DNA from: Timaviella obliquedivisa GSE-PSE-MK23-08B
Lineage (GTDB): Bacteria > Cyanobacteriota > Cyanobacteriia > Elainellales > Elainellaceae
Length of the DNA stretch: 64,000 bases
Direction of reading: 5' to 3'
Assembly (NCBI GenBank): GCA_019358855.1
Contig: JAHHII010000004.1
Location: 1 to 64,000, forward strand
Shown here: positions 27,400 through 32,116 of the stretch, one piece after another
Layout of the letters: each line of letters begins with the position of its first letter
How positions within the stretch are numbered: the first letter of the stretch is position 1
Made by a program: the position numbers and the translations under genes
The notes under the pieces: generated by a model
What the model saw: only the letters and a program-made list of their open reading frames with translations
What the model was told of the DNA's origin: nothing
Databases searched by the model: none

Positions 27400-27699
27400 T
27401 TATACCTCTAGCTGGGGAGAAACTGGGTGGGGAGCGATCGGTAGAGTGCAGCAGTTGACTTCATCAATGCAAACTTTACCCCATTGCAATGCCCAACGAA
27501 CCAATGCCACACGATTGCTGGTTGCTGTCTTGGTCAAAATATTACTGATGTGATTATCGACAGTTCGCTTACTAATTTCTAGATCTTCAGCAATTTCCTG
27601 GTTGGTCAAGCCTGCGGATACAAGTTCAACAATTTGTAGTTCACGGGCAGAGAGATTCCCACTGACCTGAGCCTCCATCCCCGTTGTCATGTTTTCCAT
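27400..27699 (-). CDS. pedR: LuxR-type regulator PedR
   Basis: This 99-residue protein is essentially a lone GerE/LuxR DNA-binding domain without receiver (LSARELQIVELVSAGLTNQE, helix-turn-helix about 31-56). Its C-terminal extension ALQWGKVCIDEVNCC carries three cysteines (77, 83, 84). This size and cysteine-bearing tail match PedR, the cyanobacterial regulator that senses photosynthetic electron flow through thioredoxin acting on a cysteine. The call rests on domain, length and tail. Confidence 0.75.
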   Translation of the reverse strand: MENMTTGMEAQVSGNLSARELQIVELVSAGLTNQEIAEDLEISKRTVDNHISNILTKTATSNRVALVRWALQWGKVCIDEVNCCTLPIAPHPVSPQLEV

Positions 27700-27777: not shown

Positions 27778-27811
27778 TTTCTCTACACTACTCCTTTCTC
27801 TACACTACTCT
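27778..27811 (+). repeat. 17-bp tandem duplication over the acetyltransferase stop codon
   Basis: TTTCTCTACACTACTC occurs at 27778 and 27795, period 17. The stop codon of the gene on the minus strand (27800-27802) lies inside the second copy. Confidence 0.85.
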
Positions 27812-28357
27812 AAGTACTCGGCAAGGATTGCCTGCGGCGACCACGTTACTAGGGATATCTTGCGTTACAATGCTGCCTGCTCCAATGGTAGTGTTATTTC
27901 CAACCTTTACGCCAGGGCAAAGAATAGCACCACCGCCAATCCAAACATCATCTCCAATGGCGATCGGTGCAGCCATTTCTAATCCAGACCTTCTGGTTTC
28001 GGCATCTAAAGGATGATATGCCGTGTAAATTTGAACTCTGGGAGCTAGCAGGACGTTGCGACCAAAATAAACAGTGTTGCAATCTAAAATAATGCAGTCG
28101 TAGTTAATGTATAAATTCTCTTCTGCGTAAATGTGGCAGCCATAGTCACACTGGAAAGGGGGCTGTACTTCAAAGTTTTGACCGATCGCCCCAAAAAGAG
28201 CTTGAATAATGTCCTCTCTTTTTTTAACCTCGTCAGGGTGTGAGGTATTAAAAGCATGGAGGAGATTCTTAGCTTTTTTGTACATGCCCTTAAGTTCAGG
28301 ATCAGTGGCTAAGTAGGGCTCATTTGCCAGCATTTTTTCTCGCTCTGTCTTTGCCAT
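27800..28357 (-). CDS. Sugar/maltose O-acetyltransferase-like (LbH fold)
   Basis: This 185-residue protein begins MAKTEREKMLANEPY, the Mac domain of maltose/galactoside acetyltransferases. A left-handed beta-helix of hexapeptide repeats follows (FQCDYGCHIYAEENLYINY, then IGDDVWIGGGAILCPGVKVG and TTIGAGSIVT). The catalytic histidine is probably in QIYTAYHPLD. It would acetylate a sugar hydroxyl from acetyl-CoA; the natural substrate is open. ATG 28357 gives the family start; 28405 would add 16 odd residues. Confidence 0.88.
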   Translation of the reverse strand: MAKTEREKMLANEPYLATDPELKGMYKKAKNLLHAFNTSHPDEVKKREDIIQALFGAIGQNFEVQPPFQCDYGCHIYAEENLYINYDCIILDCNTVYFGRNVLLAPRVQIYTAYHPLDAETRRSGLEMAAPIAIGDDVWIGGGAILCPGVKVGNNTTIGAGSIVTQDIPSNVVAAGNPCRVLRVV

Positions 28358-28603
28358 TTTTCTAATTCCAAAGTTGACGATCGCTGCAATTGAATTTTTA
28401 GCCAATTTCTAAGCAGTGGTTCTGTTCCACTCAATCTAACGCACTGGCAGTTCTGAGTTAGCGCCTGAATTAACCTTTCTGTATTGAGCCACCAGAAGGT
28501 TATCTTCAAGACATACCTTAACGAGTCAACGTGTTACTGTCACTGTATTGTAGGGCTTTAGTTTTTTGTATGGCATCTTATTTTTTTAACTAAAAGGAGC
28601 CTT

Positions 28604-30895
28604 ATGCATCGGTTCCAAATTATTGCTCATACCCAAACGGGCGAATCTATTGGTTTGGTCGGTTCTACTGCTGAACTCGGATTATGGGATGTCGCCAAAT
28701 GTATTCGGCTTCAAACTACTGTCGATCGCTATCCCCTGTGGTGGACGGAAGCAGAGATCGATCTTCAATATGTTTGCAGTTCGACAGGTGAGATTGCCCC
28801 TGAAACTGTTGGATACCCTGAAACCGTTGAGTATAAGTATGTGCGTTTGGGTGCAGAAGGCAGCGTGGAATGGGAGCCTTTTAGCGAACACCGCTGGATT
28901 GCGATCGCTCCTGAAAACCAGTCTCAGAATTTGGTAGTCGATGATGGTGCTTGGGGTTATTGGCAGCCCTATCCCTTTGGATATGTGGAAGCGATCGCAG
29001 AACCTGCTGCTGAAGTGCGCCCAAATCCTGACTCTAAAGGACTCAAAATTGTAGTGATTGGCAGTTCTGTGGCGTGTGGGCATAAGGCTTGGTTGTTAAA
29101 CGGCTGGGTAAGCCAGTTAGGGCAGACCTTGCAGCAACAGTATGGTCATCGTCTGGTGAACGTATCAGAAGTAGGGACGAACGTTAGCAGCACGATTGCT
29201 CGGTTCGCATCAGTCGTTACACCTGAGCAACCAGATGTTGTGATCATTGCCTTATCTCTAGGCAACGAAGGGTTAGCCGATTGTCCTGCTCACCAATGGC
29301 GGGCAGTGCAACGGCGGTTTGAAAGCGGGTTGCAGCAGCTTGTAAAAATGACGCGCGAACTGGGAGCCTATCCAATTTTGGGTGGTGTTTATCCTCATGG
29401 CAACTATGCGAGCGAACACAATGAGTTACTTCAAGAAACTCATCGCCGGATGTTAGGTTGGGGCATTCCGGTGCTGGATTGGTTAGCCGCAGTAGACAAC
29501 GGGCAGGGAGCCTGGAAAGTTGGCACTTCTTTTGATCCGGCACATCCCAATACAATCGGTCATCGCTTGATGTATGAGGCGATCGATCTGCGCTTATTCG
29601 AGATGAACCCAGAAGAATTGGTAAAAGAAAAACAGCGCTTTCAGCAACCTGACGAAGTATTGGTATATCAAGATAGCGAAGAGTTTCAGATCTTTGCTTA
29701 CCCTCAAGAGAACCAGTTGCGAATTCGCAATGCCTCACCCTACGCTTACACCATCACGCCTACCTGGCAGTCATTGCAAACTGCACTGCAACATCAAGCT
29801 AGATTAATGTCAGGTCTTTATGTTGCAAATCATCATCAGGCAGGAGTTCTTCCTTTTTTTGCTGTGCAAGCGGATGGAGCGATCGAAACAACGATCTCTA
29901 TTCCTCCGGGTGCTGACCTAGAATATAGCGCAGCGTTCAATCTCTTTTCGCCTCACAATTCACAGTTACTGTTTTATGACGGAAATTTGGGGATCTTAAA
30001 ACAAGACGATAATCGCATCCGAGTCATCAATGAATCGACCAACGAATATAACATCCAGCCCATGTGGCAAGAGGTTCGCAATGCACTAAAAGCAATGCCC
30101 ATGGGTGTGTACGAAGATGCGCTTGACCCTGATGTACCTTTCCGTACTTTAATGATTGGTAACGGTGGTTTGGAAAGTCGAGTTAAATCTCCACCTAGAT
30201 CTGCCTTGCTGTTCCAATATAAGTGCGAGCTATCAGACATTAGCCGTGTTGCTATTCTTCCCTTAGGCGATCGCTGTGCCGTTCGCATGATGTTGTACAA
30301 GATGGAATATGATGGCCCTGCTTTCCCGTTCGATCTAACGCGCACGACTGAAATTAGTGACGTTGCCGACATGGTCGAATCCCGGTTCTATGACATGTGG
30401 AACCCGGATTTTTTAAATTACAGTGCTGATGCAGGTCGAATCTATCACCGGAAGTGGACAGGTCTATCTTTTGCCCATGAGATTGACGAAAAGGATGATC
30501 CACTCCACGATATGACTCCCGTTCATGAACGAATGCGCGATCGCTATACAGCCCGTGCTGGCAGATTTTGGTATGCAATCCAGGAGTGCGATAAGGTGCT
30601 TTTTGTGCGGACAGGCATTAGCGATCGGGGTGGCGTCATAGATCTAGTCAATAAGTTAGGAAAACAGTGCAACGGGAGACCCTTCCACCTCTTGCTCCTT
30701 TCTCCCCAATCCTCCGATGAGTTTGCGAACCTACCCCACGTATTGCACCACGACGTTGAGTTTAATCCCGATCGGATGTATGAGGACTTAGGGCATTGGA
30801 AATATTGCGCAGAGGTAATGCGCGGCATTCTAGAATCGCTAGGAGTCTCAAGCAAAAACCTGTTTTGGTGTCCGCCTAAGCTTCCAGAGGAATAA
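28604..30895 (+). CDS. CBM20 - SGNH hydrolase - duplicated module - DUF1796 fusion
   Basis: This 763-residue protein has four parts. Residues 1-110 look like a CBM20 starch-binding domain (RFQIIAHTQTGESIGLVGS, ELGLWD). Residues 147-335 are an SGNH/GDSL hydrolase: VIGSSVACGH with Ser near 154, GxND-like SLGNEGLADC, and the terminal DPAHPN with Asp and His. Residues 360-540 hold two copies of an unassigned 85-90-residue module. Residues 546-763 match DUF1796 (VAILPLGDRCAVRMMLYKM, AFPFDL), a putative papain-like cysteine-peptidase family. No signal peptide is seen, so it is probably cytosolic, acting on or near glycogen. The substrate is unknown. Confidence 0.75.
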   Translation: MHRFQIIAHTQTGESIGLVGSTAELGLWDVAKCIRLQTTVDRYPLWWTEAEIDLQYVCSSTGEIAPETVGYPETVEYKYVRLGAEGSVEWEPFSEHRWIAIAPENQSQNLVVDDGAWGYWQPYPFGYVEAIAEPAAEVRPNPDSKGLKIVVIGSSVACGHKAWLLNGWVSQLGQTLQQQYGHRLVNVSEVGTNVSSTIARFASVVTPEQPDVVIIALSLGNEGLADCPAHQWRAVQRRFESGLQQLVKMTRELGAYPILGGVYPHGNYASEHNELLQETHRRMLGWGIPVLDWLAAVDNGQGAWKVGTSFDPAHPNTIGHRLMYEAIDLRLFEMNPEELVKEKQRFQQPDEVLVYQDSEEFQIFAYPQENQLRIRNASPYAYTITPTWQSLQTALQHQARLMSGLYVANHHQAGVLPFFAVQADGAIETTISIPPGADLEYSAAFNLFSPHNSQLLFYDGNLGILKQDDNRIRVINESTNEYNIQPMWQEVRNALKAMPMGVYEDALDPDVPFRTLMIGNGGLESRVKSPPRSALLFQYKCELSDISRVAILPLGDRCAVRMMLYKMEYDGPAFPFDLTRTTEISDVADMVESRFYDMWNPDFLNYSADAGRIYHRKWTGLSFAHEIDEKDDPLHDMTPVHERMRDRYTARAGRFWYAIQECDKVLFVRTGISDRGGVIDLVNKLGKQCNGRPFHLLLLSPQSSDEFANLPHVLHHDVEFNPDRMYEDLGHWKYCAEVMRGILESLGVSSKNLFWCPPKLPEE

Positions 30896-31101: not shown

Positions 31102-31440
31102 CTAAGCCTCCATCAGTTCCCTCACTGCCATTTCTAACCCTGGCAGGTAGTGTTCGACCGCATTCCAAATCTGCTCCAAGTCAATGCCGCCCAGATAATT
31201 GTGAACCAACACATTCCGAAAACCCGCCAATGCCCGCCAATCTATGCCTGGCGCTTTTGCCTTCAATTCTTCAGACAGCCGCTGGGTCGATTCCGCCATC
31301 GTTTGCAACCGTCGCAACACCGCATCCTGAACCAATGCACTTGCCATAAACTCTGCTTTGCCATTGCGAGTATAGTTCTGAATCAGGGCGACACAATCCA
31401 AAATATGCTCTAAATAGATGCGATCGGTTTTGGGAGTCAT
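31102..31440 (-). CDS. hepT: HepT-like toxin (DUF86 HEPN ribonuclease)
   Basis: This 112-residue all-alpha HEPN protein has the catalytic R-x4-H-x-Y motif intact: Arg75, His80 and Tyr82 in RNVLVHNYLG. Such proteins are RNases inhibited by the partner nucleotidyltransferase MntA, which AMPylates the tyrosine of the motif. Its start overlaps the stop of the mntA-like gene by 4 bases. The antitoxin gene precedes it, as is usual for this system. Confidence 0.88.
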   Translation of the reverse strand: MTPKTDRIYLEHILDCVALIQNYTRNGKAEFMASALVQDAVLRRLQTMAESTQRLSEELKAKAPGIDWRALAGFRNVLVHNYLGGIDLEQIWNAVEHYLPGLEMAVRELMEA

Positions 31441-31733
31441 AAGGGCTTCGCTTCTGCCAACACGCTCTCTCGAATCAACGGACTAATAGCCCGCTCTGTC
31501 AGCACATCGACCTTCCGTCCTAATAAATCCTGCCAATCCATCAGCAAGCCACCTGGAAACCAAGGTGTAATTCTTTCCAGATCGTAATCAATCAAAAAAT
31601 CGATGTCGCTTTCCGAGGTTTCCTCACCCCGTACCACTGACCCAAACACACGAACATTAAACGCTCCATGCTGTGCCGCAACTTGCAAAATCTCTACTCG
31701 GTTTTCCCGCAATGTGTCTAGTAACGCCATCAT
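31437..31733 (-). CDS. mntA: MntA-like nucleotidyltransferase antitoxin
   Basis: This 98-residue minimal nucleotidyltransferase has GSVVRGEETSESDID, that is G-S-x10-D-x-D with Gly31, Ser32, Asp43 and Asp45, as in MntA antitoxins that AMPylate HepT. The C-terminal part (LLGRKVDVLTERAISPLIR) is also typical. It starts at 31733 or the next codon (MM); a GTG at 31742 is also possible. It forms an overlapping pair with hepT. Confidence 0.88.
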   Translation of the reverse strand: MMALLDTLRENRVEILQVAAQHGAFNVRVFGSVVRGEETSESDIDFLIDYDLERITPWFPGGLLMDWQDLLGRKVDVLTERAISPLIRESVLAEAKPL

Positions 31734-32116
31734 TTTTACCACTTCGACTTGAAAAGATCGTTAATTTAGTCTTGTTCTCGATTTCACATTCCATAGTATT
31801 TTGCACTGAAACCTACTGTTAAAGGCGCTCCATCATATATGTGACTAACAAATATACTGACTGTTGTCATCTATGGGGGTACTCCTTCTGAATGATTATG
31901 CAGAAACTTCTTATACATTATGCTAATCCAGACAGATTAGAGGGAAAGTTCCCATATCCTCTCTACCATAATCCTCCGCTCTCTACCCCGATCGCCCCTT
32001 TCATTTGCATCAAGTGTGTCCAAGTCGATGAATTTGCGGTAAAAATGCTAGAAGCTCAGAAAAAACCTGAGAGAATATCTTACTGACTGTTCCCCAACCT
32101 AGTGCGGTTTAAACTC
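31734..32116. other. Gap before the lytic transglycosylase gene
   Basis: No gene is supported. A 64-codon plus frame at 31892-32086 has no protein-like pattern. The promoters of the mntA/hepT pair (minus) and of the transglycosylase (plus) should be here. Confidence 0.4.

Follow-up and report, generated by a model that had tools for sequence, protein, structure and literature searches.

A conserved cyanobacterial protein joining a CBM20 module, an SGNH hydrolase and a DUF1796 domain is co-inherited with an acyl-CoA ligase and may act on glycogen

The window, by which we mean the whole 64,000-nucleotide stretch of Timaviella obliquedivisa DNA that was analysed, carries at positions 28604-30895 of its plus strand an uninterrupted open reading frame of 763 codons, with neither a stop nor a frameshift between the encoded domains. 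The features of this gene are:

28592..28599, plus strand: Shine-Dalgarno-like AAAAGGAG, four bases 5' of the ATG (sequence)
28604..30895, plus strand: coding sequence of a CBM20-SGNH-(beta repeat x2)-DUF1796 protein, 763 aa (open reading frame; full-length in relatives)
28610..28924, plus strand: CBM20 module, residues 3-107, predicted to bind alpha-glucan (Pfam; W28, K78 and W90 of site 1 conserved)
29054..29569, plus strand: SGNH/GDSL hydrolase domain, residues 151-322 (Pfam; S155, G191, N221, D311 and H314 invariant)
29657..30226, plus strand: beta-rich repeat x2, in tandem, residues ~352-450 and 452-541 (model; self-match; no Pfam family)
30224..30892, plus strand: DUF1796 domain, residues 541-763 (Pfam, model; C558, D577, H625 and R651 invariant)

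Divergent to the fusion gene lies a gene for a maltose/galactoside O-acetyltransferase-like protein (27800-28405, minus strand), and beyond it one for a LuxR-type HTH protein (27400-27699, minus strand). We considered the O-acetyltransferase-like gene as a natural partner of the fusion gene and rejected it, as the pairing is kept only in the sister genome L001. Downstream, positions 31102-31742 of the minus strand hold a type VII toxin-antitoxin-like pair composed of a HepT-like ribonuclease (31102-31440) and an MNT-type nucleotidyltransferase (31437-31742), which elsewhere adjoins the fusion gene only in L001.

The initial annotation had proposed that a starch-binding-type module, an SGNH hydrolase and DUF1796 are joined in one cytosolic protein without a signal peptide, and this description holds. 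All three domains exceed the curated Pfam cut-offs within the single reading frame: the N-terminal segment matches CBM_20 (residues 3-107) with 56.9 bits (E 2e-15, cut-off 23.3), the central part matches Lipase_GDSL_2 (residues 151-322) with 56.3 bits (E 8e-15, cut-off 32.9), and the C-terminal part matches DUF1796 (PF08795, residues 551-674) with 32.0 bits (E 1e-7, cut-off 23). These E-values, together with the conservation described below, exclude chance. The N-terminus is conserved in relatives (MYRFQ or MHRFQ) and the CBM20 module opens the protein directly, with no evident signal peptide, so that we read the protein as cytosolic. The full-length predicted model has a mean pLDDT of 84. Between the SGNH and DUF1796 domains, residues ~352-541 form a tandem duplication, absent from the earlier domain description, whose two repeats match each other at E 1e-7; this region is mostly beta in the predicted model and has no match to a Pfam family.

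A species-level scan, with one genome per species, gave 71 loci, all from cyanobacterial records, and of the relatives, 66 cover the full length in a single frame. Among 386 sampled cyanobacterial genomes, 26 have the gene intact, including G143, where it occupies two overlapping frames, and only fragments of it are present in G118 and G167. The gene is split in G143, L065, L067 and L071, in G143 and L071 near the boundary between the SGNH domain and the C-terminal half; fission and frameshift both fit. A frameshift artefact or a set of separate genes is rejected for the window's genome and most relatives. The combination is not the oddity of one genome; it is a conserved cyanobacterial protein. 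A search for plasmid copies matched only the SGNH part, at <31% identity. A literature search on DUF1796 by name, and on CBM20 with SGNH in cyanobacteria, returned nothing on the fusion protein; the modules are each of a known family, and their assembly and the partner described below appear undescribed in the literature searched.

We examined conservation in two sets of fusion-protein sequences, one of 67 and a more diverse one of 29. In the CBM20 module, W28, W46 and W90 never vary in either set; W28 and W90 are present in 67/67 sequences and K78 in 66/67, the sole variation being Arg. W28, K78 and W90 are aligned with W543, K578 and W590 of the Aspergillus niger glucoamylase starch-binding domain (1ac0), residues that we take to form its binding site 1, and the closest solved folds of this part of the protein are glucoamylase starch-binding domains. 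The fusion protein is the only CBM20 protein of the window's genome. From these residues we infer that the module binds alpha-glucan, which in a cyanobacterium would be glycogen, and another alpha-glucan could serve as the ligand.

The SGNH domain retains all of its blocks, namely Ser155 (block I), Gly191 (block II), Asn221 (block III) and Asp311-x-x-His314 (block V), and these five residues are invariant in both sequence sets, which bears out the intact Ser and Asp-x-x-His noted earlier. Block I reads GSSV in place of GDSL. The SGNH fold was confirmed on the predicted model (match to 4rsh, TMt 0.79, E 1.6e-8); the nearest solved folds include GDSL carbohydrate esterases, acting on acetylxylan and acetylmannan, together with TesA, while the best PDB sequence matches are TesA thioesterases. 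With site 1 of the CBM20 module conserved and the SGNH blocks complete, the esterase or acyltransferase at glycogen suggested in the initial annotation is plausible.

A partner for the fusion protein emerged from its gene neighbourhood. In 50 of the 71 loci a gene for a stand-alone AMP-forming acyl-CoA ligase of ~500 aa, here called ACS, lies near the fusion gene. It is convergent with the fusion gene in most Nostoc-like genomes, upstream on the same strand in L056 (394 bp) and G143 (125 bp), and downstream on the same strand in G398 (~160 bp) and G428 (~27 bp), and some of these arrangements are operon-like. In G476 the ACS gene that adjoins the fusion gene (G476:C1:3155065-3156547:+) is itself broken into two frames. 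A malonyl-CoA-synthase profile by itself cannot tell ACS from other ligases, and we therefore counted co-occurrence by ortholog search, in which ACS orthologs scored at least 430 bits, mostly above 640, and other ligases at most 295 in genomes for which both kinds were listed. In the 386-genome sample of the phylum, 19 genomes carry both genes, seven the fusion gene only, none ACS only and 360 neither; among 145 genomes of the family of G352 the corresponding counts are 28, zero, three and 114. Fisher's test, which ignores the relatedness of genomes, gives p ~1e-26 in each of the two samples. The concordance is also seen within genera that hold both states (g7, g14, g21, g71 and g145) and within families f1, f5 and f12, and the two genomes with fusion-gene fragments only have no ACS ortholog. 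Only one genus, g172, is discordant through having ACS without the fusion gene (G415, G443 and G471). In the window's genome ACS (76% identity) lies on another contig, unlinked to the fusion gene, and both genes are present yet far apart or on different contigs in G000, G101, G109, G119, G123, G149, G151, G191, G229, G278, G433 and G491. No conserved neighbours of ACS were recognised at the examined loci where it is unlinked from the fusion gene. Near ACS in two distant genomes there is a glutathione S-transferase-like protein of 400 aa (L147:6743-7945:+ and L142:1753-2982:-, 76% identical to each other); as a companion of ACS it was set aside, since no more than two of the examined loci have it.

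In the PDB, ACS matches MatB malonyl-CoA synthetases best (E 2e-71; the nearest other kind of enzyme reaches 1e-57), which is the basis for its likeness to malonyl-CoA synthetases in the way that it works; the sequence also seems to us to resemble human ACSF3, a resemblance we take as a lead only. Against NCBIfam NF005702 (malonyl-CoA synthase), ACS scores ~361-400 bits, below the cut-off of 558, and other acyl-CoA ligase models score it equally well, which leaves the acid that it activates uncertain; judged by sequence, this acid is probably malonate or a close relative. Three of the seven genomes with the fusion gene only, all of one genus, have a distinct MatB-type ligase (542-555 bits against the cut-off of 558), so that a malonyl-CoA-synthetase-type ligase, either ACS or this distinct type, is found in 22/26 fusion-bearing genomes. 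G131, G177, G286 and G332 carry the fusion gene with no recognisable ligase of this type.

The C-terminal domain bears on the claim of the initial annotation that the esterase is coupled with a cysteine-protease-like activity. C558, D577, H625 and R651 never vary in the two sets of fusion proteins, and the Cys and His expected of a papain-like peptidase are among them. Across the DUF1796 family, including members with as little as 13% identity, the equivalents of G555, C558, P575-D577, F595 and R651 (Gly, Cys, Pro-Phe-Asp, Phe and Arg) are invariant. The domain model, built from 35 sequences, has a pLDDT of 92.6 and a pTM of 0.90, and a comparison with the PDB found nothing at E<1e-3; none of its 50 best matches was a papain-type peptidase. 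The papain fold was not found in this model: it shows alternating, mostly parallel alpha/beta structure, with strands at 9-13, 124-130, 154-160 and 173-177 and helices between them, an order that is not papain's. The predicted structure is thus a strong indication that DUF1796 is not papain-like.

Matches to the model were found among giant-virus members of the family, and one of these is annotated as a glycosyltransferase. In Moumouvirus australiensis, two proteins termed papain-like, Ma462 and Ma464, are encoded inside a glycosylation cluster that also contains genes for a sulfotransferase, a glycosyltransferase and an aminotransferase (PMC10117803); the authors of that study left both out of consideration, seeing no direct relation to glycosylation. 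Ma462 shares its length (188 aa) and its virus with the fold match A0A2P1ELV7. For 20 stand-alone DUF1796 genes from other genomes in the phylum, we also surveyed the genes at most two positions away, with genes lying farther out at these loci (n=77) as controls. Family-2 glycosyltransferases make up 13/77 neighbours versus 2/77 controls (Fisher p 0.005), and DegT-type sugar aminotransferases 7/77 versus at most one control, as they are not among the 25 control families listed (p 0.014 if the control count is zero, weaker if it is one). Sulfotransferases and hexapeptide acyltransferases also occur among these neighbours. Glycosyltransferase-rich neighbourhoods and the giant-virus glycosylation cluster together point to glycan modification rather than proteolysis, and the protease-like activity proposed earlier is not supported. 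One further DUF1796 protein, of 566 aa (L079:1471-3168:+, in G355), has the domain at its N-terminus, followed by a C-terminal half that resembles a glycosyltransferase by eye and has no Pfam match.

From these data we infer a scheme in which the target would be glycogen, the acid malonate-like, the direction removal and DUF1796 a second site of glycan modification. The CBM20 module would hold the cytosolic enzyme on the alpha-glucan, where the SGNH centre may hydrolyse a short acyl ester, probably dicarboxylic and of malonyl type, through the customary Ser/Asp-x-x-His mechanism. A separate malonyl-CoA-synthetase-like ligase, encoded by the co-inherited ACS gene, would then turn the released acid back into acyl-CoA. 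DUF1796 may provide a second active site, with Cys558 together with His625 and Asp577, for which a transferase or an esterase is the simplest assumption. We favour salvage of this kind, in which a glucan-anchored enzyme strips a short acid ester from glycogen and a ligase recovers the acid, while giving it somewhat less than an even chance of being correct; the literature search gave no example of cyanobacterial glycogen that is malonylated or carries any other acyl group.

The main rival runs in the opposite direction: ACS would make the acyl-CoA, and the DUF1796 or SGNH site would transfer its acyl group onto glycogen to yield an acylated storage glucan. It draws on the same co-inheritance of ACS and the fusion gene, and the presence of DUF1796 relatives in polysaccharide synthesis clusters, near hexapeptide acyltransferase and sulfotransferase genes, speaks in its favour. 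However, the folds nearest to the SGNH part are mostly those of hydrolases. Malonyl-CoA is, moreover, already supplied by acetyl-CoA carboxylase, so that if the acid is malonate, a ligase for the free acid fits salvage better than the synthesis of a donor. We regard acylation as rather unlikely. A bolder extension, which we would put forward as a speculation with a low probability, is a glycogen ester cycle, in which a two-centre enzyme both adds and removes a malonyl-type acid that the ligase recycles, and in which DUF1796 would be an unrecognised glycan-modifying family with a fold new to solved structures.

It seems improbable that the SGNH part is a TesA-like thioesterase or lysophospholipase merely parked on glycogen granules, with ACS re-activating the fatty or short acid that this part would cleave off CoA or lipid. 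The TesA sequence matches and the nature of ACS as a CoA ligase would agree with such an activity, but carbohydrate esterases are among the best fold matches, a thioesterase paired with a ligase would be a futile cycle, and DUF1796 would be left unexplained. A link with ACS that is functionally meaningless, due to the hitch-hiking of neighbours or to shared ancestry, is very improbable in our view. The two genes often adjoin, and their protein distances are correlated (r 0.93), a pattern that shared vertical descent would equally produce; yet co-occurrence persists in genomes that have them at distant sites or on separate contigs, and their orientation has switched several times with adjacency retained. 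An esterase at glycogen combined with a papain-like cysteine protease, which would act on proteins bound to glycogen, is scarcely credible as a development of the initial annotation, as the Pfam name of DUF1796 (putative papain-like peptidase) and the invariant Cys, His and Asp of the fusion family stand against a confident model that finds no papain-type counterpart among its 50 best PDB matches, a mostly parallel strand and helix order, and relatives located beside glycosyltransferases and in the giant-virus cluster.

Cyanobacteria store carbon mainly as glycogen, which is usually regarded as plain glucose. If a conserved esterase or acyltransferase does act on this glucan with a co-inherited CoA ligase, the glycogen would bear acid esters or be cleared of them, with effects on glycogen breakdown and on the malonate and malonyl-CoA economy of the cell. 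The DUF1796 result, if true, would correct a misleading papain-like peptidase label in bacteria as well as giant viruses, among them the virus genes of the Moumouvirus study.

Each component can be set against a known system. ACS resembles MatB in its motifs RLMVSGSA and HHIHG, and differs from the MatB/ACSF3 malonyl-CoA synthetases in falling under the curated cut-off. The DUF1796 domain shares its Gly, Cys, Pro-Phe-Asp, Phe and Arg with stand-alone bacterial and giant-virus members and has the same predicted fold as the latter, whereas here it is fused to a putative glucan-binding esterase instead of standing alone or within a glycosyltransferase. The SGNH domain matches the fold of SGNH/GDSL hydrolases (PF13472/PF00657) such as the acetylxylan esterase Axe2 and the TesA thioesterase I at E 1e-8 to 1e-6, but has GSSV in block I, is read as cytosolic, and is joined to CBM20 and DUF1796. 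Compared with the CBM20 of Aspergillus niger glucoamylase (PF00686), the site-1 residues are kept and site 2 is partly kept (W46 and Y43 are present, the first Tyr is not), and the module is located at the N-terminus of a probable cytosolic esterase rather than on an amylase. A parallel in the way of working may be laforin: among the fold matches of the model is the structure 4rkk, named there only as a product-bound phosphatase, which we take to be laforin, a CBM20 glucan phosphatase. In both cases a CBM20 module would bring an enzyme that removes a small group to glycogen, although laforin removes phosphate, has an unrelated catalytic domain and is eukaryotic.
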